A DNA stretch of 64,000 nucleotides, taken from NCBI RefSeq assembly GCF_029760895.1, contig NZ_CP121679.1:2418001-2482000 (forward strand), written 5' to 3'. Positions within the stretch are counted from its first letter, which is position 1, and each line of letters begins with the position of its first letter. This stretch comes from Ancylobacter sp. WKF20 (GTDB lineage: Bacteria > Pseudomonadota > Alphaproteobacteria > Rhizobiales > Xanthobacteraceae). Positions 4,631 through 19,192 of the stretch are shown here, one piece after another. The notes under the pieces are model-generated. The model worked only from the letters and a program-made list of their open reading frames with translations, had not been told where the DNA came from and did no database searches. Position numbers and translations under genes: made by a program.

Positions 4631-6193
4631 TCAATTGCCCAGAAGGCGGGAGGCGACCCGCCGGATCAGCGCCGCCAACGCCTCGGGGTTGCCAAGCAGG
4701 CGAGTTGTTTGCTCACGCGGCGGCCGGCTCATGTGGAGAAGCGCGTTCCTCACCGCCTTGAGCTGTCGATAGTCGGCCGCGATCGGGTCCGCCCGTGCGG
4801 CCTCTCCACGCGTCAGCAGGTTCAGCTGTTCCTGAGCCCGGCTGCGTTCAAGAGCGTTTTCCGTGATCTGGGGCGCCAGATGACCGCCCGCCTCAATGTA
4901 GGCGGAGATGATCGCCTCGAAGGCCAACGCCACCGCCGCGGTGAAATCTCCGCTGGCCAGCGACTGCCGCGCCAGCGCCGCCTGCAGCTCGCTCAGGCGC
5001 TGTCCTGCCCGTGCCCACCCGAGCCTTTGATGCAACGCCTCGCGAAACAGCACGGCAACCGGGCTGGCGGAAGCGTCGACGAGATCGAGCAGATGGCGCG
5101 CCCGTTCCGCCGCGCGGCGCGGACGCAGCATCTTCTCGTCGAGAGCCTGATGGCCCAGCGCCCGGCTTATCTCCGGCGAACCCGCGGCGAGTATGTCGGC
5201 CAGCGGGCCCGTCTCGCCACCGGCATCCAGCGCCCCAATCGCCCGGATCCAGGCCATGATGTCGGGAACGGCCGGTATGGAAACGACATCCGCACGGGCC
5301 TGTCGCGCATCGCGCATCGGGGCGTAAATGACCTTGTCGATGGTCAGCCGGCGCAGCGCCTCGAGCGCGGTAAGCGTCGTCATCACTGTCAGCATGATGT
5401 CGCGCAAGCCGAAAGTGACGTCGACCAGCACCCTCGCCTCCCCGCCGAGGGCAAGAGCGAGCTGCGCGGCAAAGAGCGTCGACGCGTCGCCTTGATCGAC
5501 ATAGGGCGCCAGCAGCGGCGTCACGGGCAGGCCGAAATGGCTGGAGAGCGCGCCGCCGAGCCGCGCGAGCAGTGCCGGGTCCAAGGTCCCGGACTCCACG
5601 CCGGCGAACAGGGCGAATTCGAGATCGGAGCCCCCGAGCCCGGCGAGGTCCGCCAGGAGGCTCCAGCCACTGCCAGCGGTGCCGATGACGATGACGCGCT
5701 CGATGGGCGGCCCGCCGGCGCGGCCATGGCGGATGAGGGCATCGGCCAGCCAGCGGCTCTCAATCTGGCGATCATCGAGGCCATAGCGGCAGACGGCATA
5801 ATCGCGATGCGGCGCGCCCAGCAGGGTAACGAGCGTGACCGGCGCCCGCGGTGCCGCTGGCCTGCCGACCGCCGGTCCTGTGAGGCTCTCCGGTCCGCCG
5901 CGCGGGTCGTGAAAGCTCGCCAGCGGAACGAGCCGCGCCCCGAGCCGCTCCATCTCGTCCGCGGTGAGATCCGTTCCGCGCAGACCCAGGGGCGTCTCAA
6001 GGGCGATATGCCAGTAGCGGGCCCCCCGCGCAGTGATCTGCGCGACAATGTGGCCGGGAAGATTGCCGATCACCACCGCGCCCTCGGCGAGGCCGGCCAT
6101 GTCGAGATGCTCGACGGCCTGCGCGTCGATGCCCTGCCGGGCCAGCCATTCCCGCGTGCCGGGATGGCGAGTGACCAGTTGAACCGCCGCCAT
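4631..6193 (-). CDS. Csx16-CARF-HEPN fusion (type III CRISPR ancillary protein)
   Basis: This 520-residue protein is a three-part fusion. Residues about 1-95 match Csx16 (VVA1548 family): LVTRHPGTREWLARQGI, VVIGNLP and ARGARYWHIALETP. Residues about 115-290 match a TM1812/Csx2-type CARF domain: VTLVTLLGAPHRDY at its start, VIVIGTAGSGWSLL, and the ligand-loop region DVTFGLRDIMLT. The C-terminal helical part ends with an HEPN RNase motif, RNALLH (Arg482, His487). By family knowledge, CARF binds cyclic oligoadenylate made by Cas10 and activates the HEPN RNase; Csx16 has been proposed as a ring nuclease. The fusion would then carry both an alarm and an off-switch. It reads away from array 1. Domain calls are firm; the functional reading is inference. 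Confidence 0.85.
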   Translation of the reverse strand: MAAVQLVTRHPGTREWLARQGIDAQAVEHLDMAGLAEGAVVIGNLPGHIVAQITARGARYWHIALETPLGLRGTDLTADEMERLGARLVPLASFHDPRGGPESLTGPAVGRPAAPRAPVTLVTLLGAPHRDYAVCRYGLDDRQIESRWLADALIRHGRAGGPPIERVIVIGTAGSGWSLLADLAGLGGSDLEFALFAGVESGTLDPALLARLGGALSSHFGLPVTPLLAPYVDQGDASTLFAAQLALALGGEARVLVDVTFGLRDIMLTVMTTLTALEALRRLTIDKVIYAPMRDARQARADVVSIPAVPDIMAWIRAIGALDAGGETGPLADILAAGSPEISRALGHQALDEKMLRPRRAAERARHLLDLVDASASPVAVLFREALHQRLGWARAGQRLSELQAALARQSLASGDFTAAVALAFEAIISAYIEAGGHLAPQITENALERSRAQEQLNLLTRGEAARADPIAADYRQLKAVRNALLHMSRPPREQTTRLLGNPEALAALIRRVASRLLGN

Positions 6194-6343: not shown

Positions 6344-6926
6344 GTTTGCAGCGCCTCCGCGCGCCCTAGCGCTTAGAAACGACAATTACGATGTTACTGA
6401 CTTTGTATGTTTGCAGCGCCTCCGCGCGCCCTAGCGCTTAGAAACTATCCATGACAAGAGCTCCTTTTGCTCGTTGTTTGCAGCGCCTCCGCGCGCCCTA
6501 GCGCTTAGAAACGAAGGCAAGCATGTGCAAACTCCATGGAAAAGTTTGCACCGCCTCCGCGCGCCCTAGCGCTTAGAAACCTGATCAATCCGAGAAGCAT
6601 TTTGTGCTCCTAGTTTGCAGCGCCTCCGCGCGCCCTAGCGCTTAGAAACAGGGCCAGAAGGGTACGACGCATGGGAATCTCCCATGGTTTGCCGCGCCTC
6701 CGCGCGCCCTAGCGCTTAGAAACCTGCACACATGTGATTCATGAGGCTCATGTTTGCCGCGCCTCCGCGCGCCCTAGCGCTTAGAAACCGGCCAGCCGAA
6801 TTTCTGTCGTGAAATTCAGTTTGCAGCGCCTCCGCGCGCCCTAGCGCTTAGAGACTCGTGGTGTCCATTTCGTCTATCCTTTTCCCTCCGGTTGCAGCGC
6901 CTCCTCGCGCCCTAGCGCTCTGAAAC
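6344..6926 (+). CRISPR. CRISPR array 1: nine 37-bp repeats, eight spacers
   Basis: Repeats start at 6344, 6409, 6476, 6544, 6613, 6687, 6752, 6819 and 6890. Each begins GTTTGC, contains the short stem GCGC(GCCCTA)GCGC and ends with the 8-nt tag TTAGAAAC. Spacers are 28, 30, 31, 32, 37, 28, 30 and 34 bp. The repeat at 6544 has G to C at position 8; those at 6687 and 6752 have A to C at position 7; 6819 ends GAGAC; and the last (6890) is the most decayed. Decay at the right end and the leader homology put the leader on the left and transcription rightwards. Read as the target strand, spacers 2, 3, 4, 5 and 8 hold a Shine-Dalgarno core and an ATG at proper spacing. Confidence 0.98.
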
Positions 6927-7213
6927 CGCCCTTGGGCGAACGCGTCATAGATCAGGTATCTTCGCGCCCACCTGCCTTCCAAAATGGCTTAAACTACTTC
7001 CACCCCCACTCCGATGACGCAGATCGTTCGCCCGAATACGATCGACCAACGTCGAACCGCACGCAGAACCGCCCTTATATCTTGCGGCGACGGGGATGGC
7101 GGGGCGCTCAGCCTGCCGGCACTCAGTGCCGCTCCGCCGTGATGATCGAAAAACCGGATTGACTTACCTCCGTCGCGCGGTTCTTCTTTCCTTCACGGAG
7201 GGTTGCGGCGCGT
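6927..7213. other. Intergenic region between array 1 and cmr1
   Basis: These 287 bp follow the decayed last repeat and precede cmr1. No further repeat is recognisable, and the short open frame inside (76 codons) has no protein-like features. The cmr operon promoter should be here but no consensus -35/-10 pair stands out. A GGAGG sequence at 7197-7201, 12 nt before the cmr1 ATG, is the likely ribosome binding site. Confidence 0.5.
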
Positions 7214-8464
7214 ATGACCTTTCAGATTCCTCAACGACGAAGTGTTCTCGGCAGTCGCCTGTCGACGCACCGGCTCTGCTTCGCCACGCCGGCGTTGATC
7301 GGCGGGGCGCTCCGCGACAAGCCGCCCTCCCTTGGGCTCGTCCCCCTGCTGGCGGGCTTGCGCTTCTGGTGGCGGGCCGGGGTTCATCGCGGCGCGCCGG
7401 CTTCCATGCGACGAGAGGAAATCCGGCTGTTTGGTGGCCCGGCCGAGGATGAGCGCCCGGCAAAGAACGAGCGGCCAGCCGATAAGGGCGATGCGGATAG
7501 CAGGAGCCGTTCAGCGGACAAGGGCAACATCGCCGAAAAAGCCAGCCCGACTGGCGGGATCGGGGCGTTTCAGCCCGAGCTCGATCCACTCTGTTTCGGC
7601 CCCTGGACAAAGGACGCGAAGGCCGAGTCGGTTGTTCGCGCGAATTCCGCTCTTTCCGACTTCCTGGGCTCGGCGATGGGCGGCACTTCTGCAAAAGTTT
7701 TCGCATTTCTGGAGGCGGGCGCCAGCGGTACCCTGACCTTGCGCGAGCGCCCCAGGGCAACCACGCAGGCCGACCCGACCGGTCAACCGGAGGCCCCCAT
7801 CGAGGCGCTCGACCTGGCGCTCAACCTCATGACCACCTTTGGCGGCCTCGGCCTGCTTGGGCGGCGCGGCCTCGGCTCCATCAATGACGCGGCGAGGACC
7901 GACCTCGATATCAACGCGTTCACGACCCATGTCGAAAAGCTCATCGCCACGGTCCGCGAGCGCCGCCGCCCGTCGCCCCCGCTTTCGGGAACAGCCGCGG
8001 CCACGCCGCCGCCGGACCCCTGGCGCTCGCTCCCCACCTTCGCGACTTTCTCGCATGCCACACGCTGCGTGGTGCTGGACATGACGCACACGCGGACAGG
8101 GCTCGACGCCCTCGCGGAGCTCGCCACCGCCGTTGGCAACTTCGCGAAGAGCCCGCCCGTGGCGTTCGCACCGGAACATGTGTTCTCGGCCCAGAGCGCG
8201 ATCACAGGCAAAGCGACCCGGGGCCGCTGGCCGAGCCAGTTGCACATTCATGTCCAGCAACTCGCGGCAGGTTATGCCATCGTGCTGACTCATCTGCCGA
8301 CGGCCTTCCCTCCGCTGGCCAAGGATGGAAGGGCTGCTCACGATGCGGAGATTGCCAAGGCCGAGTTCGATGCCGCCACTCTCCGAATAGAGACCTTTCT
8401 GGATCAGATTCCGCACGCCGGCCTCGCGGGCGCGGTGCACCCGATCACGGTGCCCCGCGAATGA
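7214..8464 (+). CDS. cmr1: Type III-B CRISPR RAMP protein Cmr1
   Basis: This 416-residue protein is the first gene of the six-gene cmr operon and should cap the 3' end of the crRNA in the Cmr complex. Cmr1 marks are visible: an N-terminal strand and loop (LCFATPALIGGA), LAGLRFWWRAG (the usual PPSIRGxLRWWWRA region), REEIRLFGG, and the glycine-rich loop GGLGLLGRRGLGSI in the middle, as expected for a two-RAMP protein. The N-terminal extension of about 20 residues before the first strand leaves the start slightly uncertain; the ATG at 7214 has GGAGG upstream. The stop overlaps the cmr2 ATG by 4 bp, so the two are translationally coupled. Confidence 0.88.
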   Translation: MTFQIPQRRSVLGSRLSTHRLCFATPALIGGALRDKPPSLGLVPLLAGLRFWWRAGVHRGAPASMRREEIRLFGGPAEDERPAKNERPADKGDADSRSRSADKGNIAEKASPTGGIGAFQPELDPLCFGPWTKDAKAESVVRANSALSDFLGSAMGGTSAKVFAFLEAGASGTLTLRERPRATTQADPTGQPEAPIEALDLALNLMTTFGGLGLLGRRGLGSINDAARTDLDINAFTTHVEKLIATVRERRRPSPPLSGTAAATPPPDPWRSLPTFATFSHATRCVVLDMTHTRTGLDALAELATAVGNFAKSPPVAFAPEHVFSAQSAITGKATRGRWPSQLHIHVQQLAAGYAIVLTHLPTAFPPLAKDGRAAHDAEIAKAEFDAATLRIETFLDQIPHAGLAGAVHPITVPRE

Positions 8465-10857
8465 GCGAGAACCGCCTGCATTTTCATCTGGGACCGGTGG
8501 CGGGTTTCGTCGGCAGCGCGCGCCGCACGCGGGACGTATGGGCCGGGTCGTTCATCCTGTCCTGGCTCTCGGCCTCCGCGCTGCATGCGGCGCTGACACC
8601 TCTCCGCGGCGACACGGAGCGGGTCATCAGTCCATTTGGCGTCGATCAGGATCCGACCTTCCGCGCCATCTGCCTCAAGGAGGACCGCGCGAACGGCCGC
8701 AAGACGGGCGAGCCGACCATTCGTCCGTTCCTTGGGACTTTTCCCAATCAGTTCATCCTGTCCGCCGGTAGCCAGCACGCCAAGGCCGCGGCAGCCGCAA
8801 CCAAGTCCGTGCGCGACAACTGGAAGCAGCTGGGCGCGGCCGTGGCATCGTTCATCTTCGACGCAGAGATCGAAGGGTCGACCCTCGGCACCCTCTATCC
8901 TGACGCGCGAAATCTCTTCATGAGCCAGATCCACGTCGGCGACCTCACGCCCATGTGGGAAATTCTCACCGTCGTCGATCATAGCGAGGACAGATGGAGG
9001 AAGCTTCCCGACATCGGCAATCTGTCGCCCATGGCGTTGCGCAAGCTCAACCGCTGGTCCGCAGACACGGCAGCCCTGCCGCCTGAACAGACTGGCGCTC
9101 TCTGCACCATGCTGCCCGGCTGGCGCGAGATCTCCGCCATTGATGGCGGCGGCAGTCGTAAGGACGAGCGGCGCGAATTCTGGGCCAAAATGCGGGCTGC
9201 CCTGCTCGCCAGACGTTACCCGGGAGCCAAACTCACCTCCGATTGGGAATGCCTCGATCTTCGGCCGACAGAGCAACTCAGCGCCCCAGCGCTGGTCAAG
9301 CGGGTGTTCCCTCTGCTCCCCGAAGAGACACTGGTCAAAATCATCGGGTGGATGCCGCTGATCGAGGCCCCGGAACTTCCACCAAGCCTCAACGAGCCCA
9401 ATGCGGGCGCCCAGCTTCTGCAGTGGGCCAAGCATTTTTTCTTCGGGCGCATGAACGGTGGAGAGGACAGCCCCAGTGTGGCGGAGCCGAAGGGGACCAC
9501 GGCACCCTCGCCCAAGGCGTCGAGGCACCGGCAGATCATGCTGTGGCCGTCCACGAGCTATATGGCCGCCGCCCATTGGCTGGAGAAAGTGCAGCGGCAG
9601 GCACATGGCGAACGTGCCCGTAAGGGCCTTGCCGATGCGGTCGAAAAAGCGGCCTGGCCTCTGCGCGTCGCGGAGCGGACCCTGTTCGTCAAATGCACCA
9701 GCATCGAGAACCGTTCGGTTCTCGCGGATGTAGATGGGGCGTGCTTCTTTGACACAAGCGTTCAGCGGCTGATCCGGCAGGCAAATGAGCGGCCCGCTGG
9801 CAAAAAATCCGTCGCCACCATGGAGACGGTCGCGCAGTGCTTGCAGGCGATTTACGATCTCCCTCTCGATCCTGACGACGAGAACAGCCCCCGGATCGGA
9901 GCACCGGCCCCAATCTATGCCGTGATCCATGTGGATGGAGACCAGGTCGGCAAGACACTCGCGGAGTATCCACACTACCGGGCGGCCATCAGCGGCGCCC
10001 TTGCCGATTTCATCGGCGCGATGCGCGGCAGAAACAACGAGCTCGGCATTATTGCGGAATCAAATGGCGTGACGCTCTATGCGGCCGCGGACGAAATCAT
10101 CGCCATGTGCCCTCTTGAGGACGCCATCGATCTCGCGTTGAAAATCAACGATACCTTTGACGACAAGATGAAGGCGGCCTGCTCGCCGAGTAAGGCGGCA
10201 AAGAAGGAGAAGGTTCCCGACAAGCCTCCCACCCTTTCAGTCGCCATCACATTCGCGCATCGGCAGGTGCCGCTCACCTGGGTGCTGGAATCGGGCAAAC
10301 GGCTGCTCGATGATGTCGCCAAAAGAGAGATGGGCCGGGCGGCGCTTGCCATCGAAGTGCTCGACGCTGGCGGGCGGCGGCTGGACTGGGGGGCCAATTG
10401 GCAAAGCCCGAACGACCCGATCAAGGGCTTGAGTCGCCTTCTGTCCTTCGCTCTCGGACGTGCGCCCGCTATCGGCAGCAACCAGTTCATCCACGCCTTT
10501 GCGGAAACGTTAGCGCCGCTGCTGCTCGATGATCCCACTCTCGACTTCAGGGCGCGTCTGGAGGCAATGAGAGAGGAGCCGGAAGTACCGTCTCCATCAG
10601 AGCAGGTTTCTGTCGTAGCGCTCGCTTTGATCAGTCATCTATTCAAGGAGTTCTGCAAGGACGACGAAACCTTAAAGGATCTAACGCCTATGATCGCGGG
10701 GGATATACTGGCGATTTCAAGAGGATATTGGAAAGAGACGGAGAACGAGAAGTTCTGCAAGGACACACAGGGGCTTCTGTCCGGCAATGGCTTACGGTTG
10801 CTTCGGTTCATGGTCGAGAACTGGCGGGGCGATCCGCCGGTGGAGGTCAACCCGTGA
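8461..10857 (+). CDS. cmr2: Cas10/Cmr2, HD-less, with divergent palm motif AADE
   Basis: This 798-residue large subunit of the Cmr complex opens directly with the Cmr2 N-terminal domain (GPVAGFVGSARRTRDVWAGSF), so the HD nuclease domain found before it in many Cas10 proteins is absent. The cyclase palm is recognisable: first metal Asp in VDGDQVGK (residues 491-498), then TLSVAITFAHRQVPL and the helix with AKREMGRAALAIEVL. Where the catalytic GGDD should be, the sequence is Y540-AAADEII, giving A542-A543-D544-E545. One acidic residue is kept and the other is Glu, as in GGDEF cyclases, but both glycines are lost. Cyclic oligoadenylate synthesis is thus in doubt. It overlaps cmr1 and cmr3 by 4 bp. 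Confidence 0.9.
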   Translation: MSENRLHFHLGPVAGFVGSARRTRDVWAGSFILSWLSASALHAALTPLRGDTERVISPFGVDQDPTFRAICLKEDRANGRKTGEPTIRPFLGTFPNQFILSAGSQHAKAAAAATKSVRDNWKQLGAAVASFIFDAEIEGSTLGTLYPDARNLFMSQIHVGDLTPMWEILTVVDHSEDRWRKLPDIGNLSPMALRKLNRWSADTAALPPEQTGALCTMLPGWREISAIDGGGSRKDERREFWAKMRAALLARRYPGAKLTSDWECLDLRPTEQLSAPALVKRVFPLLPEETLVKIIGWMPLIEAPELPPSLNEPNAGAQLLQWAKHFFFGRMNGGEDSPSVAEPKGTTAPSPKASRHRQIMLWPSTSYMAAAHWLEKVQRQAHGERARKGLADAVEKAAWPLRVAERTLFVKCTSIENRSVLADVDGACFFDTSVQRLIRQANERPAGKKSVATMETVAQCLQAIYDLPLDPDDENSPRIGAPAPIYAVIHVDGDQVGKTLAEYPHYRAAISGALADFIGAMRGRNNELGIIAESNGVTLYAAADEIIAMCPLEDAIDLALKINDTFDDKMKAACSPSKAAKKEKVPDKPPTLSVAITFAHRQVPLTWVLESGKRLLDDVAKREMGRAALAIEVLDAGGRRLDWGANWQSPNDPIKGLSRLLSFALGRAPAIGSNQFIHAFAETLAPLLLDDPTLDFRARLEAMREEPEVPSPSEQVSVVALALISHLFKEFCKDDETLKDLTPMIAGDILAISRGYWKETENEKFCKDTQGLLSGNGLRLLRFMVENWRGDPPVEVNP

Positions 10858-12056
10858 CCGATCCATGCATTGTGGCCTTCGACGCCGTCGACACGCTCTG
10901 GTTCCGCGAGGGGCGAAGCTTTGAACAGACCGATGACGGGCTTGCAGATGCGCGCGCGGTCTTCCCGCCGTCGCCCACCAGCCTTGCCGGCGCGTTGGCG
11001 GCGGCGATCGGGCGCCCCTTGCTGCCGTCTCTGCGCATCAGCGGCCCGTTCTTGACGGACGGTTCGACGCTTTTCCTGCCGGCTCCATCCACGCTCTTCC
11101 GCAAGGAATCGAAGCGATCAACGTCCCCGGTAGCACGCGAGGACCTCGTCGTCATGCTTCCTCAAAAGGATTCGACGTGGCTCGGCGATGAGTGGCTGCC
11201 CTGCCCGGTACGGCTCCAACAGCCCGCCCGCGACGCTTCCAACAAGAAACATGAACCAGATCTCGAAGATCTCAGCGGAGCCTTCATCAGGGATACTGAA
11301 TTTTTTCAGCATATGGACGATATGCTCCTTCACGGGACGCGTTTCCTCCCTCTCGTCGGCCGAAGCAGCGTTGTGATACCCGAGCCGCGGATCGGCATTA
11401 AGCTTCAGGCGGAGCAACGCGCCGCAGAGCCAAGCATGCTCTATGCTGGACAGCATTTTCGACCGGCGCGCGTTGAACCTAAATTACTCTGCGTGGAACT
11501 TGCGGGCGCGGATCAGGCAACGTTGAGCGCCATAGATGGGGCCCTGGTGCCACTGGGTGGACGGGGAAGGATGTGCCGCCTTCGGGTTCTGCCTGACATC
11601 GCGCTCCATCGTTACCGAGAAACGACCCCGCCAGTGCGGTGGCGCACGGAACGCAAACGTTTTTACTTTAGGCTGACAGCTCTCTCGCCGGTTCCCGTGA
11701 GCGAGGACGGATCGAAACGTTTCGGTCTTGGCCTTCCCACCGGGAATACGGGCTGGTGTTCCGATTTGCAGGTTTGCACGGCTATCATGCCGTCCCGTCC
11801 GACCGTGATCGGACGCTGGGCCTTGGGGCCGGGCAGCTCGGGAACCAGCCATTCGAGCCTGCATTATGCGCACCCTGCCGGAACGACGTGGTTCGTCTCG
11901 CTGCCGGAAGCCGGCAAGTCGCAGGCTGATCTTGTTCGGGCTTTCAACGACGTTCGGTTCGCTCCGCCCCCTCTTGATGGCATCGGCTTCGGTCGCGTGG
12001 CGGCGGGTGAATGGCCGACGCATGAGGGCATACGCAAACGCATGAAGGCGAAATAG
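10854..12056 (+). CDS. cmr3: Type III-B CRISPR RAMP protein Cmr3
   Basis: I chose the GTG at 10854, which overlaps the cmr2 stop (GTGA), over an upstream in-frame ATG inside cmr2. The 400-residue product then starts as Cmr3 should: FDAVDTLWFREGRSF, followed by ARAVFPPSPTSLAGALAAAIG. Cmr3 binds the crRNA 5' tag beside Cas10 and joins it to the Cmr4 filament. A C-terminal stretch with HYAHPAGTTWFVSLPE and GIGFGRVAAGEW supplies the RAMP glycine-rich loop. It is followed after 3 bp by cmr4. Confidence in the family is high. Confidence 0.88.
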   Translation: MTDPCIVAFDAVDTLWFREGRSFEQTDDGLADARAVFPPSPTSLAGALAAAIGRPLLPSLRISGPFLTDGSTLFLPAPSTLFRKESKRSTSPVAREDLVVMLPQKDSTWLGDEWLPCPVRLQQPARDASNKKHEPDLEDLSGAFIRDTEFFQHMDDMLLHGTRFLPLVGRSSVVIPEPRIGIKLQAEQRAAEPSMLYAGQHFRPARVEPKLLCVELAGADQATLSAIDGALVPLGGRGRMCRLRVLPDIALHRYRETTPPVRWRTERKRFYFRLTALSPVPVSEDGSKRFGLGLPTGNTGWCSDLQVCTAIMPSRPTVIGRWALGPGSSGTSHSSLHYAHPAGTTWFVSLPEAGKSQADLVRAFNDVRFAPPPLDGIGFGRVAAGEWPTHEGIRKRMKAK

Positions 12057-12059
12057 GTC

Positions 12060-12986
12060 ATGACACGATCGCTTTGGTGGCTAAACGCCGAGACATCGAT
12101 CCATGTCGGATCCGCGTCCACGGCGTCGCTGATCGACCAGCCGGTAGCTCGGGAATCGACCACCGGCTATCCCTTCATTCCGGGGTCGGGCCTGAAGGGT
12201 GCCCTGCGCGATGCTTGGCGGTTCTCTCTCGTCAGCAAACCGGCTGCCGTCAATCTGAAGGAGGCCGACAGTCATCAGGACATCAAAGAATTTTTCGGCG
12301 TTGCCGAAGGCGCAGGAAGCATTCTCATCTCGGATGGGCGGCTCCTGCTCCTGCCCATGCGGTCGTTGAACCACGCCTTCGTCTGGACGACCTGCCCCTA
12401 CCTGATCAAGCGATACGCCCGCGACATGGAATTCTGCGGCCTATCGCTGGACAACCAATTTATTCCGCCACTCCAGCCGGCGGATCATGAGTGTTTCATC
12501 ACGCATGCCGACGACGAGAAGGAAAAGCTCAAGGACAACATCTGGATCGAGGATCACCGGCTGACCTGCCAGCGAAGCGATATACCCTGGAACAGTCTTG
12601 CCCCGCTCAGGGATGAATCCCAGGAGACGTATAGCGGCCCCCCCGTCGTCGTGGTCTCAGATCGTCTGTTCGGTCACTTCGCACGCAGCAGGCTCCCGGT
12701 TCGCATGCGCAACCAGCTCAACCCGGATAGCAAGACCGTGAAAACGGGACACCTCTGGTCCGAGGAGGCGCTGCCGCCCGAGACCGTCCTCTACACGATC
12801 CTGAGTGACCGCCTGCCCTCCGCAACGAACGCTGCGGGTGCCAGCGCTCTTTCGCGATTTGAAGTCGAGCTTGAAAAGATCAAGCATGTTCAGGTCGGTG
12901 CCAACGAGACCGTGGGTGAAGGCTGGCTGCGCGTGCAGCCGTGGCGCGAATTGTCGAACGGGGCTCAGAAGGCGCCCCAGTCATGA
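12060..12986 (+). CDS. cmr4: Type III-B CRISPR backbone RNase Cmr4
   Basis: This 308-residue RAMP protein forms the repeated backbone of the Cmr effector and cuts target RNA every six nucleotides. The N-terminus has the Cmr4 pattern HVGSASTASLIDQPVARE followed by GYPFIPGSGLKGALRDAW. The Asp at position 26, in the IDQP stretch, matches the known slicer residue, so target RNA cleavage should be intact even though Cas10 is degenerate. LFGVAEGAG-like and C-terminal VGANETVGEGW glycine-rich regions also fit. The stop overlaps the cmr5 ATG by 4 bp. Confidence 0.92.
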   Translation: MTRSLWWLNAETSIHVGSASTASLIDQPVARESTTGYPFIPGSGLKGALRDAWRFSLVSKPAAVNLKEADSHQDIKEFFGVAEGAGSILISDGRLLLLPMRSLNHAFVWTTCPYLIKRYARDMEFCGLSLDNQFIPPLQPADHECFITHADDEKEKLKDNIWIEDHRLTCQRSDIPWNSLAPLRDESQETYSGPPVVVVSDRLFGHFARSRLPVRMRNQLNPDSKTVKTGHLWSEEALPPETVLYTILSDRLPSATNAAGASALSRFEVELEKIKHVQVGANETVGEGWLRVQPWRELSNGAQKAPQS

Positions 12987-13396
12987 TGTCCCTGTCGAAC
13001 GATCACTACCGACTCCGGACCGTGGCGAGGACGATTGGCGCCTCCTGCACGCGCGACTTTGCCGGCGCTGTCGACAGCCTGGCGTCCGACTTCATGATCG
13101 TCGGCCTGCTGAAGGCACTGGTGATGGCCCCTCCCAGGGCGAGCGAGGTCGGGCCTCATCCCGCAACCATGCTGGCGGGCTGGCTGAGCCAGCAATTTCC
13201 ATCGAACGAGCGCAAGGGGGATAGCGTCATTGCCTGCGTCCAGTGGCTGCTTGCCGTGGATGACAACACCGAATGGCTGATGATCGAAGAAGAGGCAGCC
13301 GCTTATCTGGCTCAGCTCAAGATTTACGCAAAGGCTGCAAAGGAAAAAGAGCGCGAGGAAACGCCGGCGAAAGGGGCCGTCAATGACCGCGGATGA
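12983..13396 (+). CDS. cmr5: Type III-B CRISPR small subunit Cmr5
   Basis: I take the ATG at 12983, which overlaps the cmr4 stop, giving a 137-residue mostly helical protein of the size expected for Cmr5. Cmr5 forms the minor filament (belly) that holds the target strand. The sequence itself is weakly conserved; GLLKALVMAPPRAS, MLAGWLSQQFP and VIACVQWLLAVDDNTEWLMIEEEA are helix-rich segments typical of the family. The call rests on size, helical character and position between cmr4 and cmr6. The C-terminus is a charged tail. It overlaps cmr6 by 14 bp. Confidence 0.82.
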   Translation: MMSLSNDHYRLRTVARTIGASCTRDFAGAVDSLASDFMIVGLLKALVMAPPRASEVGPHPATMLAGWLSQQFPSNERKGDSVIACVQWLLAVDDNTEWLMIEEEAAAYLAQLKIYAKAAKEKEREETPAKGAVNDRG

Positions 13397-14342
13397 TGCT
13401 AAACGGGCGCTGGTAGAGGTTCTAAGCACAGACCCCGTTCTTTCCAAGGTCCAGGGGGCCGCACCTGCGAGCGGGGGGCATGCCGGGCTCTGGTGGGAGC
13501 GCTATGGCGGGGCCTTCGTCACGGAAAGAAGGAGCAAGGGAGTGAAAACAAGGAACCTGTCGGTTCCGCGTTCCAACTGGATCAAAGCGTTGGCCGACCG
13601 GGTCGGGAACGCCGACGCGATGATGAAGGCCCGGTTGACCCGGCATCATCAGCAGCGGGCCGCGTTGATCGGGCCGAAGGGCGTGCAGTTCACCGCGACG
13701 CTCAGGACCCCGCTCGTCATCGGCATGGGCCTGCCGCATCCGACCGAGAACGGATTGATGTTCCACCCCACCCTCGGTGTGCCTTACATACCCGGCTCGT
13801 CGCTGAAAGGCGCGGTTCAGGCCTTTGTCTATGAATGGCTGCTGCGCGGTGCCTATGATGTTGCGAAGGCGCTCGATGAGGATATTAAGCGCATCTTCGG
13901 GCAGCCCCACCGCCTCGAGGCGCATGAGAAGGCGCATGAGGAGAAGGCCACGAAGCGTGGGTCCGTTGTCTTCCTTGATGCCCTTCCCGTCAGTTGGCCG
14001 AGCATCGGCACGGAAATACTCAATCCGCACATCGGCAACTATCTGACGAGCGCCAATGAGCCGCTGACAGATGGCATTCATGTCACCCTGAAGCCCATCG
14101 CCTTCGCGAGCGTGGCGCCGGGGTGCACTTTCGCCTTTCTGCTGCGCCCCTCGCCCATGGCGCCCGTCTCGGCGGCGGAGGCAGAGGCCGATGTCGCCCT
14201 CGCGGCCGGCTGGCTGGCGGCAACACTCACCGATCTGGGGATTGGCGCCAAGACCAAATCAGGATTTGGCCGGTTCGCGGACATTCGCGAGATCGCTCAC
14301 GCGTCGAACGCGGGCACGACGTCGAAGGACACGACTTCATAG
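13383..14342 (+). CDS. cmr6: Type III-B CRISPR RAMP protein Cmr6
   Basis: This 319-residue RAMP protein ends the cmr operon and caps the filament next to Cmr1. It shows the family signature TPLVIGMGLPHPTENGLMFHPTLGVPYIPGSSLKGA (split here by reading) near residues 108-145, a RIFGQ helix, GSVVFLDALPV in the core, and the C-terminal glycine loop GIGAKTKSGFGRF. The first 100 residues are a helical extension. The 3' end overlaps the 3' end of the minus-strand membrane CARF gene by 46 bp, so the two transcripts are complementary there. Confidence 0.85.
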   Translation: MTADDAKRALVEVLSTDPVLSKVQGAAPASGGHAGLWWERYGGAFVTERRSKGVKTRNLSVPRSNWIKALADRVGNADAMMKARLTRHHQQRAALIGPKGVQFTATLRTPLVIGMGLPHPTENGLMFHPTLGVPYIPGSSLKGAVQAFVYEWLLRGAYDVAKALDEDIKRIFGQPHRLEAHEKAHEEKATKRGSVVFLDALPVSWPSIGTEILNPHIGNYLTSANEPLTDGIHVTLKPIAFASVAPGCTFAFLLRPSPMAPVSAAEAEADVALAAGWLAATLTDLGIGAKTKSGFGRFADIREIAHASNAGTTSKDTTS

Positions 14343-15322
14343 CCGCCCGGCCGCTGATCGTTATCCCGCACATAGACCATGATCACGTCCGGCTGCAGCG
14401 TCACCAGCCCGCTGGCGACAGCGTAAACGCGGGGGCCTCCGGTGATGTCGATCGCGATTCGCGGCCGCCGCTTGAGGGGGCCGCCCGGGGACTGCGAGGT
14501 GTCCTTCAGCAACGCGCCGATCTCTTCATTGACCTTATCCCGCAGGCGGTTCTCGATATATTCGATTTCGGAAGATTCCTCATCTCCGCTGATCGGAAAA
14601 TCCTCGATCTTTACATGATTCAAGCCACAATTACTTAGTATATGTTGGATAATATTATGAAATATCTCCGGTTGGTACTTTCTATTATTTGCTTCAAAGT
14701 GAGACGTTATTAATAGAACGACTTTCTTCAGTCGGCGGGACTCGGGTGGCGAAACGTCGATCTGCGCCTTCAGGCTTCGCCAGCTCTGCTGCCAGGAGAA
14801 ATCCTGCAGTTTGACGCTGGCGCCCGGTTCAGTGACAATTGAACCATGGCTGTGGCAAATCTTCGTAAGATCCCATGACTTATCTTTGTCACCGATTTCT
14901 TCAGGATTAATCTTTGATCCAGGCAGTTTTCCCGCCATAAACGCCTCGATAGTCCGAAGTTTTGCTTCAATATCCCCCTCCGCAGTGAGGCTATTCAGGG
15001 GCTTGGACACCGCCAGGAACAGAACATCAGCGGTGGGATCGTCGGTCTTCCGGCCCTGCGCGCTTTTCAACCCGGCGAGCGCCTGCACACCCTTGATGGT
15101 GAAATAGGTGAAGACGCCGGCAATCAGCGCGGTCACGAGGACGAGGCCGGCGCGTCCCCACCAGCGCGGGTCGCACCACGCGATGATGGCGCCGCTTTCC
15201 GTGAGGCTCGCGCCCTCCTTGACCCAATCGGAGAGCAACGTGCCCGACACCCCCGCCGAAAGGCCCGCGACGACCAGACAGAAGGCGGCCCGAGCCCGCT
15301 GCCCCCGGCTTGTTGACGCCAT
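14297..15322 (-). CDS. Two-helix membrane protein with C-terminal CARF-like domain
   Basis: From the ATG at 15322 (GGGGAG about 10 nt upstream) the product is 341 residues; an in-frame start 96 bp upstream is possible but less fitting. Two hydrophobic helices lie at about 12-31 and 57-76. A soluble domain begins near ADVLFLAVSKPLNSL and ends with the CARF-like motif IDITGGPRVYAVASGLVTL, close to the ligand-loop pattern of known CARF proteins. By analogy with the membrane CARF effector Cam1, it could open or perturb the membrane when cyclic oligoadenylate binds. The middle of the gene (about 14610-14720) is far more AT-rich than its neighbours, hinting at transfer. It converges on cmr6. CARF membership is inferred from motif and context. 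Confidence 0.7.
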   Translation of the reverse strand: MASTSRGQRARAAFCLVVAGLSAGVSGTLLSDWVKEGASLTESGAIIAWCDPRWWGRAGLVLVTALIAGVFTYFTIKGVQALAGLKSAQGRKTDDPTADVLFLAVSKPLNSLTAEGDIEAKLRTIEAFMAGKLPGSKINPEEIGDKDKSWDLTKICHSHGSIVTEPGASVKLQDFSWQQSWRSLKAQIDVSPPESRRLKKVVLLITSHFEANNRKYQPEIFHNIIQHILSNCGLNHVKIEDFPISGDEESSEIEYIENRLRDKVNEEIGALLKDTSQSPGGPLKRRPRIAIDITGGPRVYAVASGLVTLQPDVIMVYVRDNDQRPGGYEVVSFDVVPAFDA

Positions 15323-15551
15323 GCCCTGACACTCCCCTGCCCCGCCCTCATTATCGAGGTACCGTGCAGCGCGAGGCAAGGGCAATGCCAGTGGGGCGGC
15401 CGTATCTGACCCGCGCACGGGAAAGAACGTGCGCAGGCATCGTGAATCGATGGCGTGCCGTTTCTACGTCGGGCCGACGCTTCTGAACACCAGGACGCCC
15501 GGCGTCGCCTGAACTTGGAGAACCCTAAGTTTCGGTGCCCATCGACAAGAA

Positions 15552-15858
15552 GCTTCCAAGCAGTCGGGCGCGCTGAGGTGCGCCTAACTTAATTTCCGAC
15601 GCCAGCCAATGGAGGCCAGTTTCTAAGCGCTCGGGCGCGCTGAGGTGCGCCTAACAGGCTCATCGATGTGATGGAGTTTCCATGTTTCTAAGCGCTCGGG
15701 CGCGCTGAGGTGCGCCTAACCTCGTTTTGGAGGCATAGCGAGGAAGGAGATGTTTCTAAGCGCTCGGGCGCGCTGAGGTGCGCCTAACCCGCGGTATGGA
15801 GATAGATATGATGAACATTCAGTTTCTAAGCGCTCGGGCGCGCTGAGGTGCGCCTAAC
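15552..15858 (-). CRISPR. CRISPR array 2: five 37-bp repeats, four spacers
   Basis: Plus-strand repeat positions are 15552, 15619, 15684, 15752 and 15822 (each 37 bp). Read on the minus strand they start GTTAGGCGC, keep the stem GCGC(GCCCGA)GCGC and end in the same tag TTAGAAAC as array 1. The copy at 15552 is decayed, so the leader is at the right, next to RT-cas1, and transcription is leftwards. Spacers are 30, 28, 31 and 33 bp. On the target (plus) strand the spacer at 15789 holds GGAG, 6 nt, ATGATG. The one at 15656 holds GGAG, 5 nt, AT, with the repeat's first G completing ATG. The one at 15721 ends in a purine-rich GAGGAAGGAGAT. Confidence 0.98.
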
Positions 15859-15960
15859 TTAGCCTCTGGAAACCCCTCGTCAAGAGCGATTTTTGTCGGT
15901 AGCTTCCACATGGCACCTGCGTTTGACACTCATTTCTGAGTTATAGATCGACCCTGTGGA
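15859..15960 (-). promoter_or_regulatory. Leader of CRISPR array 2
   Basis: These 102 bp separate the first repeat of array 2 from the RT-cas1 gene and overlap its GTG start by 5 nt. Read on the minus strand they match the array 1 leader in length and in spaced blocks (TCCACAGGGT, GTGGAA, TTGAC, TCCAGA). The same segment must also carry the RT-cas1 promoter on the other strand: TATAGAT at 15942-15948 lies 7 nt before the GTG, which would make a nearly leaderless mRNA, but no well-spaced -35 is seen. Confidence 0.7.
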
Positions 15961-18019
15961 ATTGCACTCGAATATCTTCGAAAACCTGTGCACGCCAGCC
16001 GCCCTTCTGGCGGGCTGGGCGCGCGTGCTGGCCAATGTCGGTGGACCGGGGGGCGACCGCGTTACCGTCCACAGCTTCGGTCACAATCTGGATGGCGAGA
16101 TCGCCCGGCTGCGCGCCGACCTCGCCAGCGGCGCCTACCGGCCCGGCCCGCTGCGGCGCACCGCCATTCCCAAGCGCTCCGGCGGCAGCCGGCCTCTGGC
16201 CATTCCCTGCGTGCGCGACCGCGTGGCACAGAGCGCGCTGCGCCTTTTGCTGGAGCCGCGGCTGGAACCCACCTTCTCCGATGCCAGCTTCGGCTATCGG
16301 CCGGGTCGCGGTGTCACCGAAGCCGTGGCGCGGGTGCAGGAACTCTATCGGGAGGGCTACCGCCACGTCGTCGACGCCGATATCGAGCGCTTCTTCGAGC
16401 ATGTGCCGCACGGCCCGCTGCTGGTGCGGCTGGGAGAGGCGATCCAAGAGCCGCCGGTCGTGCGGCTCATCGGTCGCTGGCTCTCCGCCGAGCCCGAGGC
16501 GCGGGGCCTGCCGCAGGGGTCGCCGATCTCGCCGCTGCTCTCCAACTTCTATCTCGACCATCTCGATGATCGCCTCACCGGGCGCGGCGTGCGTCTCGTG
16601 CGTTTCGCCGACGATTTTCTCGTTCTCTGCCGCAGTCCCGACGGTGCCGGGGCGGCGCTGGAGCGGGTGCGTGACATTCTCGGCGAACTCGGGCTCCGGC
16701 TCAATCTCGACAAGACCCGGCTGATCGACTTCGACCGCGGCTTCCAGTTCCTGGGGCGGAAATTCGTCAAGAGCTTCGTGCTGGCCGGCACCGTGCTGGA
16801 GGAGGAGGAGGAAGACGAGGCGATGAGCATCGCCGGACCCTCCGGAGCATGGTCGGCGGGGAATCCGATGGACGCCGCCCTGCCGGCGCCGGCGGATGCG
16901 AACGCCGCCCCACGCCTTACGCCGGCGCCCAACGCGACGCCGCCCCAGACACTGGACGCCGGCACGCCCGAAAATGCCCCCGCGGCCGAAGGCGCGCCCG
17001 CCACCCATGATCTGGCCCCGGTCCTTCGGCCACTCTACCTGCTCACGCCCGGCCGCCGGCTGAGCCTGCGCGGTGAGGCCTTCGCCGTGATGGAGGACGG
17101 ACAGACCGTCGCGCTGCTCGCCCCGCGCCGGCTCGACCGCATCGAGATCGGCCCCGACGCGGAGGCTGATGGGAATGCCCTGCGCCAGGCGCTCGCCTAC
17201 GGCATCCATGTCGCCTATGTGAGCGGCAGCGGGCGCACGCTGGGCACCCTCGCCCCGCCCCCCGACCACGGCGCGCGGCATCTGGCGCAGGCCGGCACGC
17301 GGCTCGACCCGCGGCGCGGGCTCGCCATCGCCCGCGCCTTCGCCGGCGCCCGCATCCGTAATCAGCGGGCGCTGCTGAACCGGCTCAACCGGCGCCGCAA
17401 GCACAGCGCCGTCGCGGAGACCGCGAGCAAGATCGGCCGCATCGCGCTGAAGCTCGGTATCGCCCTGCGTGAGGATGCCGTGAGGGGCGTCGAGGGAGAA
17501 GCCGCCGCCTTGTACTGGCCGGCGCTGGGCCAGATGTTCGAGCACGGCTTCGGCCTGACGCGCCGCGAACGGCAGCCCCCCGCCTCACCGACCGATCTCA
17601 TTCTGAACTACGCCGCCGGGCTGCTGGCGCGCGACGTGGAAACCCTGCTGCTTCGGCACGGGCTGCATCCGGGGATCGGCTTCCTGCATGGCGCGCGCGA
17701 TCTGGAGGCGCCCCTGGCCTGGGATATCATGGAGCCGTTCCGCGCGCCCCTGGTCGAGGGTTTCGCCGTCTATCTCGTCAACAACCGCGTCCTGCGCGCC
17801 GCCGAGTTCGACCGGCGTGAAGATGGCAGCCTCGTCATGGCGCCGGACGCGCGACTCTCGCTCACCCGAGCCTATGAAGGCTGGCTGGCGCGGCCGGTGA
17901 GAAACCACCGCCTCGGCAGTGACACGGTATGGCGCGGCCTGATCGAGCACGACATCCTCGCCCTCATTCGCACGATCCAAGAGGACGAGCCGTTCGAGCC
18001 TTACGTAATGGATTATTGA
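15956..18019 (+). CDS. cas1: Reverse transcriptase-Cas1 fusion
   Basis: This 687-residue adaptation protein has a group II intron-like reverse transcriptase (about 1-275) fused to Cas1 (about 350-687). RT motifs are intact: first catalytic Asp in VDADIERFF (D140), GLPQGSPISPLLSN, and the active site FADD (217-220). The Cas1 active-site trio is also intact: Glu515 (GEA), His578 (GFLH) and Asp590 (AWDIMEPFR). Known RT-Cas1 proteins can acquire spacers from RNA. The two parts are joined by an unusual linker: an EEEEEDE acidic run then some 60 Pro/Ala-rich residues. The GTG start is set by alignment of the N-terminus (IFENL...W.RVLANVGG) with RTs. Cas2 follows after 2 bp. Confidence 0.95.
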   Translation: MELHSNIFENLCTPAALLAGWARVLANVGGPGGDRVTVHSFGHNLDGEIARLRADLASGAYRPGPLRRTAIPKRSGGSRPLAIPCVRDRVAQSALRLLLEPRLEPTFSDASFGYRPGRGVTEAVARVQELYREGYRHVVDADIERFFEHVPHGPLLVRLGEAIQEPPVVRLIGRWLSAEPEARGLPQGSPISPLLSNFYLDHLDDRLTGRGVRLVRFADDFLVLCRSPDGAGAALERVRDILGELGLRLNLDKTRLIDFDRGFQFLGRKFVKSFVLAGTVLEEEEEDEAMSIAGPSGAWSAGNPMDAALPAPADANAAPRLTPAPNATPPQTLDAGTPENAPAAEGAPATHDLAPVLRPLYLLTPGRRLSLRGEAFAVMEDGQTVALLAPRRLDRIEIGPDAEADGNALRQALAYGIHVAYVSGSGRTLGTLAPPPDHGARHLAQAGTRLDPRRGLAIARAFAGARIRNQRALLNRLNRRRKHSAVAETASKIGRIALKLGIALREDAVRGVEGEAAALYWPALGQMFEHGFGLTRRERQPPASPTDLILNYAAGLLARDVETLLLRHGLHPGIGFLHGARDLEAPLAWDIMEPFRAPLVEGFAVYLVNNRVLRAAEFDRREDGSLVMAPDARLSLTRAYEGWLARPVRNHRLGSDTVWRGLIEHDILALIRTIQEDEPFEPYVMDY

Positions 18020-18021
18020 GG

Positions 18022-18306
18022 ATGGCAGCCAAGGTTCTCGCGGTCGTCTGCTACGATGTCATCAAGGACTCGGTCCGCGACCGCCTCGCATCCCTGCTGG
18101 AAGAGGAACTTATCCGCGTTCAGGAGAGCGTGTTTGAAGGGTGGATCGGCGAAGGGAAGCTACGGAATCTCGTCCGACGATCCGCCGCGCTGATTGGCCC
18201 CGACGACAGCCTGCGGGTTTATCGCCTCGGCGCGTCGGACGCGATGCGCACGATCGTCCATGGACCGACCCCCGCGGTGGAGGCTGGCGATTACTATCTC
18301 TTCTGA
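18022..18306 (+). CDS. cas2: CRISPR adaptation protein Cas2
   Basis: This 94-residue protein has the normal Cas2 length and fold signature: a first strand ending in VVCYDV with the conserved Asp12, then DSVRDRLASLLEEELIRVQESVFEG, and a late strand LRVYRL. Cas2 bridges two Cas1 dimers in the integration complex that inserts spacers at the leader end. It starts 2 bp after RT-cas1, with GAGG just before the ATG, and its end overlaps the start of cas6. Confidence 0.95.
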   Translation: MAAKVLAVVCYDVIKDSVRDRLASLLEEELIRVQESVFEGWIGEGKLRNLVRRSAALIGPDDSLRVYRLGASDAMRTIVHGPTPAVEAGDYYLF

Positions 18307-19192
18307 CGCTGCGGCCGCTCCAGACGCGGATTTCCGACGGATCATCGAACGGCGACTGTCGTCGCCACAGGTTCATGGCGATCTCGAAACGCTGCTGTCC
18401 GCCTTGCACTGGACCGATCTCACCCTGGTGATGACGGCGCCGCCTCTCATGGAAGAGCTCCCTGATCTCGGTGACCGTTTCCGGGGAGCTCTTGGCCGGC
18501 GCCTGGAGGCAATGGGCCCGACAGGAGCCGAGGCGTGGCACCTTCTCTTCGGACCGCTCTTTCGCGCCGGTAGCGAAGAAGCCATCCGTCCCTACGCGAT
18601 AGCCGCGCATCGTGAGCGGGACGCGATCATCTGGCGCCTGCGGCTTTTCGGCTTCGCCGATCTCTGGGCGGAGGAGATCGAGGCTGCCATGCGGTTGGCT
18701 CCCGTGGCTGGTATCGCCCTGCGGCGATCGGGCATGCAGCGCGTCCCCCTTGATATCCGGTCCGTAACACGCGCGCTTTCATGGTGGGCCTCTCCACCGC
18801 ACGAAGCGCGCCGTGTTCGGATGACAACCATCACCCCTCTCATCATCCGCCGGAGCCGCTCCACGCTTGGCTCGCTCGACGGCCTGCATTCCTCCATCAT
18901 CAGACGATTGCTGGCCGTCGCCCGCTGGTGCGATGCCGCGGCCAGTCGATCCTTACTCGCAGATCTGCGGTCCGATGTGTGGAGCCTTGCCGACGAGACC
19001 CTCTCCCCCGTCGGCTGGGTTCGGCATTCATCCAATCACCCGGAGGGCGTCGTCAATCTCGGCCTTTCAGGACACTTCCTGTTGAGTGATTTGACACCGA
19101 TCGGCAACCGATTGACGCAGTCCGCACTGCTTTTCCACGCAGGCGGAGGAGCGACAGCCGGCTTTGGATGGCTAACAGGCATCCTGTTGTAG
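18260..19192 (+). CDS. cas6: CRISPR precursor-crRNA endoribonuclease Cas6
   Basis: From the ATG at 18260 the product is 310 residues, the usual Cas6 length; an in-frame ATG at 18194 lies deeper inside cas2, and the true start is uncertain because no clear ribosome site is seen. The C-terminal half has the Cas6 RAMP features: LGLSGHFLLSDL and the terminal glycine-rich loop GGGATAGFGWLTG. Cas6 should cut each repeat 3' of the GCGC stem and leave the 8-nt UUAGAAAC tag found in both arrays. It is separate from RT-cas1, unlike Cas6-RT-Cas1 fusions known elsewhere. It overlaps cas2 by 47 bp. Confidence 0.8.
   Translation: MDRPPRWRLAITISSDAAAAPDADFRRIIERRLSSPQVHGDLETLLSALHWTDLTLVMTAPPLMEELPDLGDRFRGALGRRLEAMGPTGAEAWHLLFGPLFRAGSEEAIRPYAIAAHRERDAIIWRLRLFGFADLWAEEIEAAMRLAPVAGIALRRSGMQRVPLDIRSVTRALSWWASPPHEARRVRMTTITPLIIRRSRSTLGSLDGLHSSIIRRLLAVARWCDAAASRSLLADLRSDVWSLADETLSPVGWVRHSSNHPEGVVNLGLSGHFLLSDLTPIGNRLTQSALLFHAGGGATAGFGWLTGILL

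Follow-up and report, generated by a model that had tools for sequence, protein, structure and literature searches.

Passages of an earlier study term the source of the spacers in type III CRISPR-Cas systems linked to a reverse transcriptase (RT) enigmatic (PMC5513706). A 64-kb stretch of the genome of Ancylobacter sp. WKF20 (the whole stretch that was analysed, hereafter the window) encodes an RT-Cas1 type III-B CRISPR-Cas locus that raises this question in a particular form: are its spacers directed at the sites where the translation of mRNAs begins? An original prediction, made from the DNA alone, claimed that they are, and that they all lie in the RNA-targeting orientation. Our best reading, which we hold tentatively and with somewhat less than even confidence, is that in the window and in its nearest readable relative, Oryzibacter oryziterrae, about half of the spacers or more, by our estimate, lie antisense to start-like mRNA sites, that the CRISPR RNAs (crRNAs) likely direct Cmr to the ribosome-binding sites of mRNAs, and that selection on function is the source of this pattern.

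We re-extracted all 12 spacers of the locus, eight from array 1 (6344..6926, plus strand, nine 37-nt repeats) and four from array 2 (15552..15858, minus strand, five repeats). In both arrays the 3' end of the repeat is CTTAGAAAC, which resembles the tag of type III crRNAs, and the crRNA-distal end carries a degenerate terminal repeat (at 6890 and 15552). From the repeat ends and the distal degenerate repeats, the crRNA is read from the plus strand in array 1 and from the minus strand in array 2. Six spacers have, on the strand antisense to the crRNA, a Shine-Dalgarno (SD) core followed by ATG at spacings of 8, 7, 6, 6, 8 and 6 nt, exactly as first listed. Five of them are start-like on the minus strand of array 1: A1.2 (6446..6475, aaaGGAG-8-ATG, likelihood ratio (LR) 12), A1.3 (6513..6543, GGAG-7-ATG, LR 16), A1.4 (6581..6612, TAGGAG-6-ATG, LR 9, with a TAG three codons ahead of the ATG and in its frame), A1.5 (6650..6686, GGGAG-6-ATG, LR 70, the best-scoring spacer of the window) and A1.8 (6856..6889, AAAAGGA-8-ATG, LR only 1.2). 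The sixth, A2.4 (15789..15821, plus strand, GGAG-6-ATG, LR 13), may be internal coding sequence. The partial case A2.2 (15656..15683, plus strand) was also found as described, with GGAG-5-AT completed by a G from the repeat. On the anti-crRNA strand, each of the 12 spacers contains one or more frames that stay open throughout, so individual spacers may come from internal coding positions. A test for spacers devoid of any open frame did not discriminate.

How unusual are these motifs? The strict motif (GGAG-N5-8-ATG) occurs in 5 of the 12 spacers (42%) on the anti-crRNA strand and in 0/12 on the crRNA strand, compared with a mean of 0.09 per 12 in shuffled spacers and 0.49% in random segments of the window. 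The loose motif (GGAG, GAGG or AGGA, followed by N4-9 and ATG) occurs in 6/12 (50%) and 0/12, respectively, and 5000 shuffles gave a mean of 0.28 and a maximum of 4. Hence, the predicted RNA-targeting orientation is borne out, the two strands being clearly unequal, and shuffled spacers do not reproduce the count. When AAGG is accepted as an SD, the crRNA strand scores 2/12, in agreement with the two weaker opposite-strand cases reported before. When three annotated alphaproteobacterial phages are sampled uniformly along their coding strands, 0.49–0.96% of the segments contain the strict motif and 3.1–4.0% the loose one, whereas 33-nt segments centred on the annotated starts of the same phages reach 10–24% and 37–55%. 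The window's frequencies look like those of a spacer set made of starts. In AT-rich IMG/VR contigs, the coding strand gave 1.6% (strict) and 5.6% (loose), and the other strand 0.13% and 0.92%.

We then placed the window among its relatives. RT-Cas1 homologues were aligned and 80 loci fetched; 63 had RT-type arrays according to our own array finder, for a total of 907 distinct spacers. For 13 arrays we assigned the orientation manually, judging by the ends of the repeats, and we left out three arrays whose repeats belong to other types (78 spacers). Identical spacers were counted once, which reduced Oryzibacter (locus L002) from 22 to 21; its spacers at positions 268 and 335 are identical neighbours. 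The fraction of starts was estimated on the anti-crRNA strand with a mixture model whose SD part was learned from phage starts, the three training phages also supplying three of the four phage nulls. The start fraction is 0.66 (0.30–0.92) in the window and 0.52 (0.21–0.80) in Oryzibacter. It is 0.02 (0–0.08) in the other alphaproteobacterial RT loci (339 spacers) and 0.01 (0–0.05) in the remaining RT loci (547 spacers), i.e. the 62 other RT-Cas1 loci pooled (886 spacers) lie at the level of uniform coding-strand sampling, 0.01–0.02. Coding-strand nulls gave 0.00–0.02 and the AT-matched phage null 0.10. Non-RT type III arrays (L121–L162, without L126, which has an RT; RTs were looked for only in L121–L152) gave 0.07 (0–0.15; n = 244). 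On the crRNA strand, the estimate for Oryzibacter is 0 (0–0.35). Among the 48 RT loci with at least six spacers, the window ranks first by gain in log-likelihood (10.9) and Oryzibacter second (8.8); the third gains 2.3.

Resampling from the 886 other RT spacers gave P values of 5e-6 for the window and 1e-5 for Oryzibacter. The corresponding values are 1e-5 and 2.5e-5 against GC-matched RT spacers, 4e-5 and 3.9e-4 against non-RT type III spacers, and 3.5e-5 and 1.3e-3 when the pool is limited most strictly, to alphaproteobacterial RT spacers below 0.55 GC. Against the AT-matched phage null, the window is at the floor of the test (5e-5) and Oryzibacter at 3.5e-4. The window's P value against other RT spacers is still 5e-6 without spacer 15789 (A2.4), 1.1e-4 without spacer 6650 (A1.5) and 9.3e-4 without both. 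The P values of the window are too low because it was picked for looking striking, whereas the choice of Oryzibacter did not depend on the motif.

The claim that the spacers resemble initiation sites therefore stands in part: the resemblance exceeds what chance or uniform mRNA sampling would give, and the pattern recurs in Oryzibacter, but it is not a general trait of RT-Cas1 systems. The bias had been expected in related RT-Cas1 arrays. The 62 other loci are strand-biased, but their pooled start fraction matches uniform coding-strand sampling, and we rejected a general RT-Cas1 start bias. By the original prediction's own standard, this narrows the claim to one lineage. The strand bias itself is seen across the 907 spacers of the 63 RT loci, where the strict motif occurs 23 times on the anti-crRNA strand and once on the crRNA strand, an asymmetry of the kind that mRNA targeting by type III spacers should produce. 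The non-RT type III arrays also show a clear RNA-targeting orientation (7 vs 2 of 244 for the strict motif).

Some observations concern individual loci. In the third-ranked one, L006 (array at 9574–10040), two of six spacers are start-like (GGAGGTTTTCATG and AAAGGAGGCTGCCGTG), and its contig has no Cas10 match. In L031, the spacers at 13408 and 13621 of one array both contain aaccgttaaggagagtaaa and end at ATG, which may reflect two captures of one gene start or of related ones. No further members of the lineage were found among the 151, 397 and 20 genomes of the RT-Cas1 searches or the 385 genomes of a Cas10 search. Among the other matches of these searches, L084 (genome G149) has an array whose repeat is that of L014, and two Cas10 loci of G976 have GGDD and no array within the fetched stretches.

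What else distinguishes this lineage? Among the 25 Cas10 relatives listed, the palm-2 GGDD motif reads [AGS]ADE in the ten closest, including that of the window (P0121–P0130), and is retained as GGDD in the remaining 15. In these ten proteins the second glycine is replaced by alanine and the acidic D-E pair is kept; the window's Cas10 has AADE and that of Oryzibacter SADE. The term lineage is used here for similarity rank and shared motif, not for a clade in a Cas10 tree. Among the 63 Cas10 rows from fetched loci, 58 have GGDD or GGDE, and the five exceptions are the window, Oryzibacter, L049 (AGDE), L021 (GADE) and L072 (GGED). The Cas10 of the window lacks an HD domain, since the protein begins at Cmr2_N, and its predicted structure (pLDDT 83, pTM 0.86) matches Cmr2 chains, including HD-deleted ones. 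Synteny between the loci of the window and Oryzibacter extends to the two CARF genes, Cas2 and Cas6.

The gene order in the window is a Csx16-CARF-HEPN effector fusion (4631..6193, minus strand), array 1, Cmr1 (7214..8464), Cas10/Cmr2 with AADE in place of GGDD (8461..10857), Cmr3 (10728..12056, ORF, i.e. open reading frame, start uncertain), Cmr4 (12060..12986), Cmr5 (12941..13396), Cmr6 (13383..14342), a membrane CARF protein (TM-CARF; 14297..15418, minus strand), array 2, the RT-Cas1 fusion (15956..18019), Cas2 (18010..18306) and Cas6 (18194..19192, ORF start uncertain); all genes but the two CARF ones are on the plus strand. Cas10/Cmr2, Cmr3, Cmr4 and Cmr6 are all present, as in type III-B systems, and Cmr1 and Cmr5 have only weak PADLOC matches (E values of 8e-5 and 0.009), with positions that fit this type. 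The system is filed as III-B on its gene set, GGDD being usual for the type, not defining, and absent here. The RT and Cas1 domains share one ORF that adjoins Cas2, the arrangement of an RT-Cas1 adaptation module. In both the window and Oryzibacter, Cmr4 keeps the loop aspartate that aligns with that of Pyrococcus Cmr4 (LIDQPV) and that is presumably catalytic. The Ancylobacter genome consists of one 4.63-Mb contig with one Cas1 match, and no third array with this repeat emerged from a pattern search that tolerated two mismatches at most.

Why would spacers of such a system concentrate at starts? Most type III systems start to make a second messenger on binding target RNA, whatever the site of binding, so the position of the target on the mRNA should matter little. 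An altered Cas10 making little or no messenger would leave protection to rest on stopping the targeted mRNA itself, and spacers covering ribosome-binding sites would then be those worth keeping. Their crRNAs would lead the Cmr complex to these sites, where messages would be blocked or cut. We infer that the start bias arises from such selection on function. Selection is preferred because the orientation is one-sided, although the RT-Cas1 of Marinomonas orients RNA-derived spacers only marginally, according to the relevant passages of PMC5576922, and because the messenger-making motif of the lineage is changed, which would make position matter.

The main rival to selection is a bias of acquisition by RT-Cas1. 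The RT-Cas1-Cas2 of this lineage would preferentially take RNA pieces around initiation sites, which are AU-rich, accessible and perhaps ribosome-protected, and later selection would only fix their orientation. The crRNAs would bring Cmr to ribosome-binding sites in this case as well. We regard this as rather unlikely, but it has several points in its favour. Spacers are shorter in the window and Oryzibacter (medians of 30.5 and 31 nt) than in other RT loci (33 and 35 nt), so the acquisition machinery probably differs. Passages of PMC11014452 state that RT-Cas1 proteins take spacers from both RNA and DNA, and the account given in part of PMC9048733 has new spacers of the RT-free type III-A system of Streptococcus thermophilus enriched roughly 10–50 bp downstream of start codons. 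This enrichment is, according to the same account, on the coding strand; besides, acquisition at starts would still require either oriented acquisition or selection in addition. The spacers themselves show neither a sharp ATG position nor a ribosome-footprint edge, their ends scattering widely relative to the ATG.

Base composition offers a different route to the same pattern: if the machinery prefers AT-rich protospacers, and AT-rich stretches of GC-rich phages sit at gene starts, then starts would be sampled without being sought. Window spacers do average 47% GC, compared with 67.7% for the window, though only one of the 12 is below 0.40 GC. In two phages of ~60% GC, segments with a GC of 0.40–0.50 contain the strict motif in 2.1–2.5% and the loose one in 11–13% of cases, rising to 3.3–5.2% and 9–29% below 0.40. 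Yet the start signal in both the window and Oryzibacter is above that of the AT-matched phage null (a fraction of 0.10 in the mixture model), of the GC-matched RT spacers and of the alphaproteobacterial spacers below 0.55 GC. AT preference accounts for only part of the window's start excess, and we consider it improbable as the whole explanation. Slightly less probable still is chance combined with the selection of the finding, i.e. that attention fell on the most striking array out of many. There are only 12 spacers and the motif was chosen after reading them, but Oryzibacter, which was not picked for the motif, ranks second of 48.

Several results weigh against start-directed selection. When the model is run on the crRNA strand, the window gives 0.62 (0.05–0.96) with a gain of only 2.3, which we put down to CATG palindromes as a putative source. 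With plain motif counts, the enrichment in Oryzibacter is only modest (strict 3/21 vs 20/886 in other RT spacers, P = 0.014; loose 4/21, P = 0.021). The window and Oryzibacter are relatives and represent one evolutionary event, with 33 spacers. In L021, whose less related Cas10 has GADE, the 7 spacers lack a clear start bias. Oryzibacter and the window have both kept the two CARF effectors, at 45% and 23% identity, and the RNALLH of the window, which we take to be the HEPN motif, looks intact. Together with the kept D-E pair, these features suggest a living messenger, not a dead cyclase.

Protospacers also fail to support it: none was found for the window's spacers in its own genome, in INPHARED, in plasmids or among exact cores in IMG/VR. 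Outside their own arrays, the 12 spacers have no better match in the genome than stretches of 15–25 nt with E values of at least 0.26, and we rejected self-targeting or host regulation. INPHARED phages gave no match for the 12 spacers at E values up to 10, and the arrays of L050, L051 and L012, the three searched in this way, none at E values up to 1. Plasmids gave a single chance-level match for the window and Oryzibacter spacers, an Oryzibacter spacer inside one gene (three records). Eight IMG/VR scans with exact 18–19-mers of 5/12 window and 3/21 Oryzibacter spacers, which miss diverged targets, gave six without match and two with chance-like ones. The only window spacer matched there was 15789, through an 18-nt core that looks like SD-ATG-ATG and occurs in 50 stretches (L163–L212). 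In 42 of these it lies deep in a long ORF of another phase, as codons for GDRYDE; hence this spacer may not be a start. The case cautions against calling starts from single spacers. The proposed search against phage, plasmid and host sequences thus yielded no protospacer for the window; for Oryzibacter, the two phage similarities inspected, out of 37 matching records, both lie on annotated starts in sense orientation. One, in a Pseudomonas phage (E = 0.8), covers 26/29 bases across the start of a thymidylate synthase gene, and the other, in a Klebsiella phage (E = 10), covers 24/36 over the full spacer at the start of the tail tubular protein A gene; taken alone, both are at chance level.

How does the locus compare with known systems? 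The RT-Cas1 III-B system of Marinomonas mediterranea MMB-1 likewise has an RT-Cas1 fusion, Cas2 and a Cmr effector. It differs from the window in its marginal spacer orientation (PMC5576922, in part), where that of the window is one-sided, and the Cas10 motif is altered in the window, unlike in MMB-1-type systems. Adaptation in S. thermophilus III-A (Zhang et al. 2021, described in part of PMC9048733) also yields spacers near start codons, but these are freshly acquired from host genes by an RT-free system, downstream of the start and on the coding strand. Those of the window cover the SD-ATG itself, in RNA-targeting orientation and in established arrays. According to passages of PMC12669027, about 97% of Cas10s are predicted to be active, III-C, III-G and III-H are inactivated, and in III-G and III-H dead cyclases accompany the loss of CARF-type genes. 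The window shares with these subtypes a changed Cas10 catalytic motif, but it keeps the acidic pair, two CARF proteins and an ordinary III-B gene set. Vink et al. 2021 (PMC8482600) report that type III spacers match the coding strand in 65% of cases on average, and gene starts are not mentioned in the passages of that study available to us. Our literature search found no paper on start-directed RT-Cas1 arrays, which is no proof of absence.

Silencing by small RNAs or CRISPR interference at ribosome-binding sites places an antisense guide over the SD or the start codon; the guide in the window would come from an adaptive-immunity array. It is possible, and we propose it with more reserve than the reading above, that in this lineage an RNA-targeting immunity has turned into an adaptive silencer of translation initiation, its spacers captured or kept for covering ribosome-binding sites, with a rebuilt Cas10 cyclase motif alongside. 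With half or more of its spacers resembling starts, the immune system would likely silence invaders where protein synthesis begins. This would be an uncommon case of immunity that depends in part on where in a gene a CRISPR target lies, and of a spacer repertoire tied to a change in Cas10. A lineage with spacers aimed at one place of the mRNA would also give a direct handle on the source of RT-linked type III spacers.

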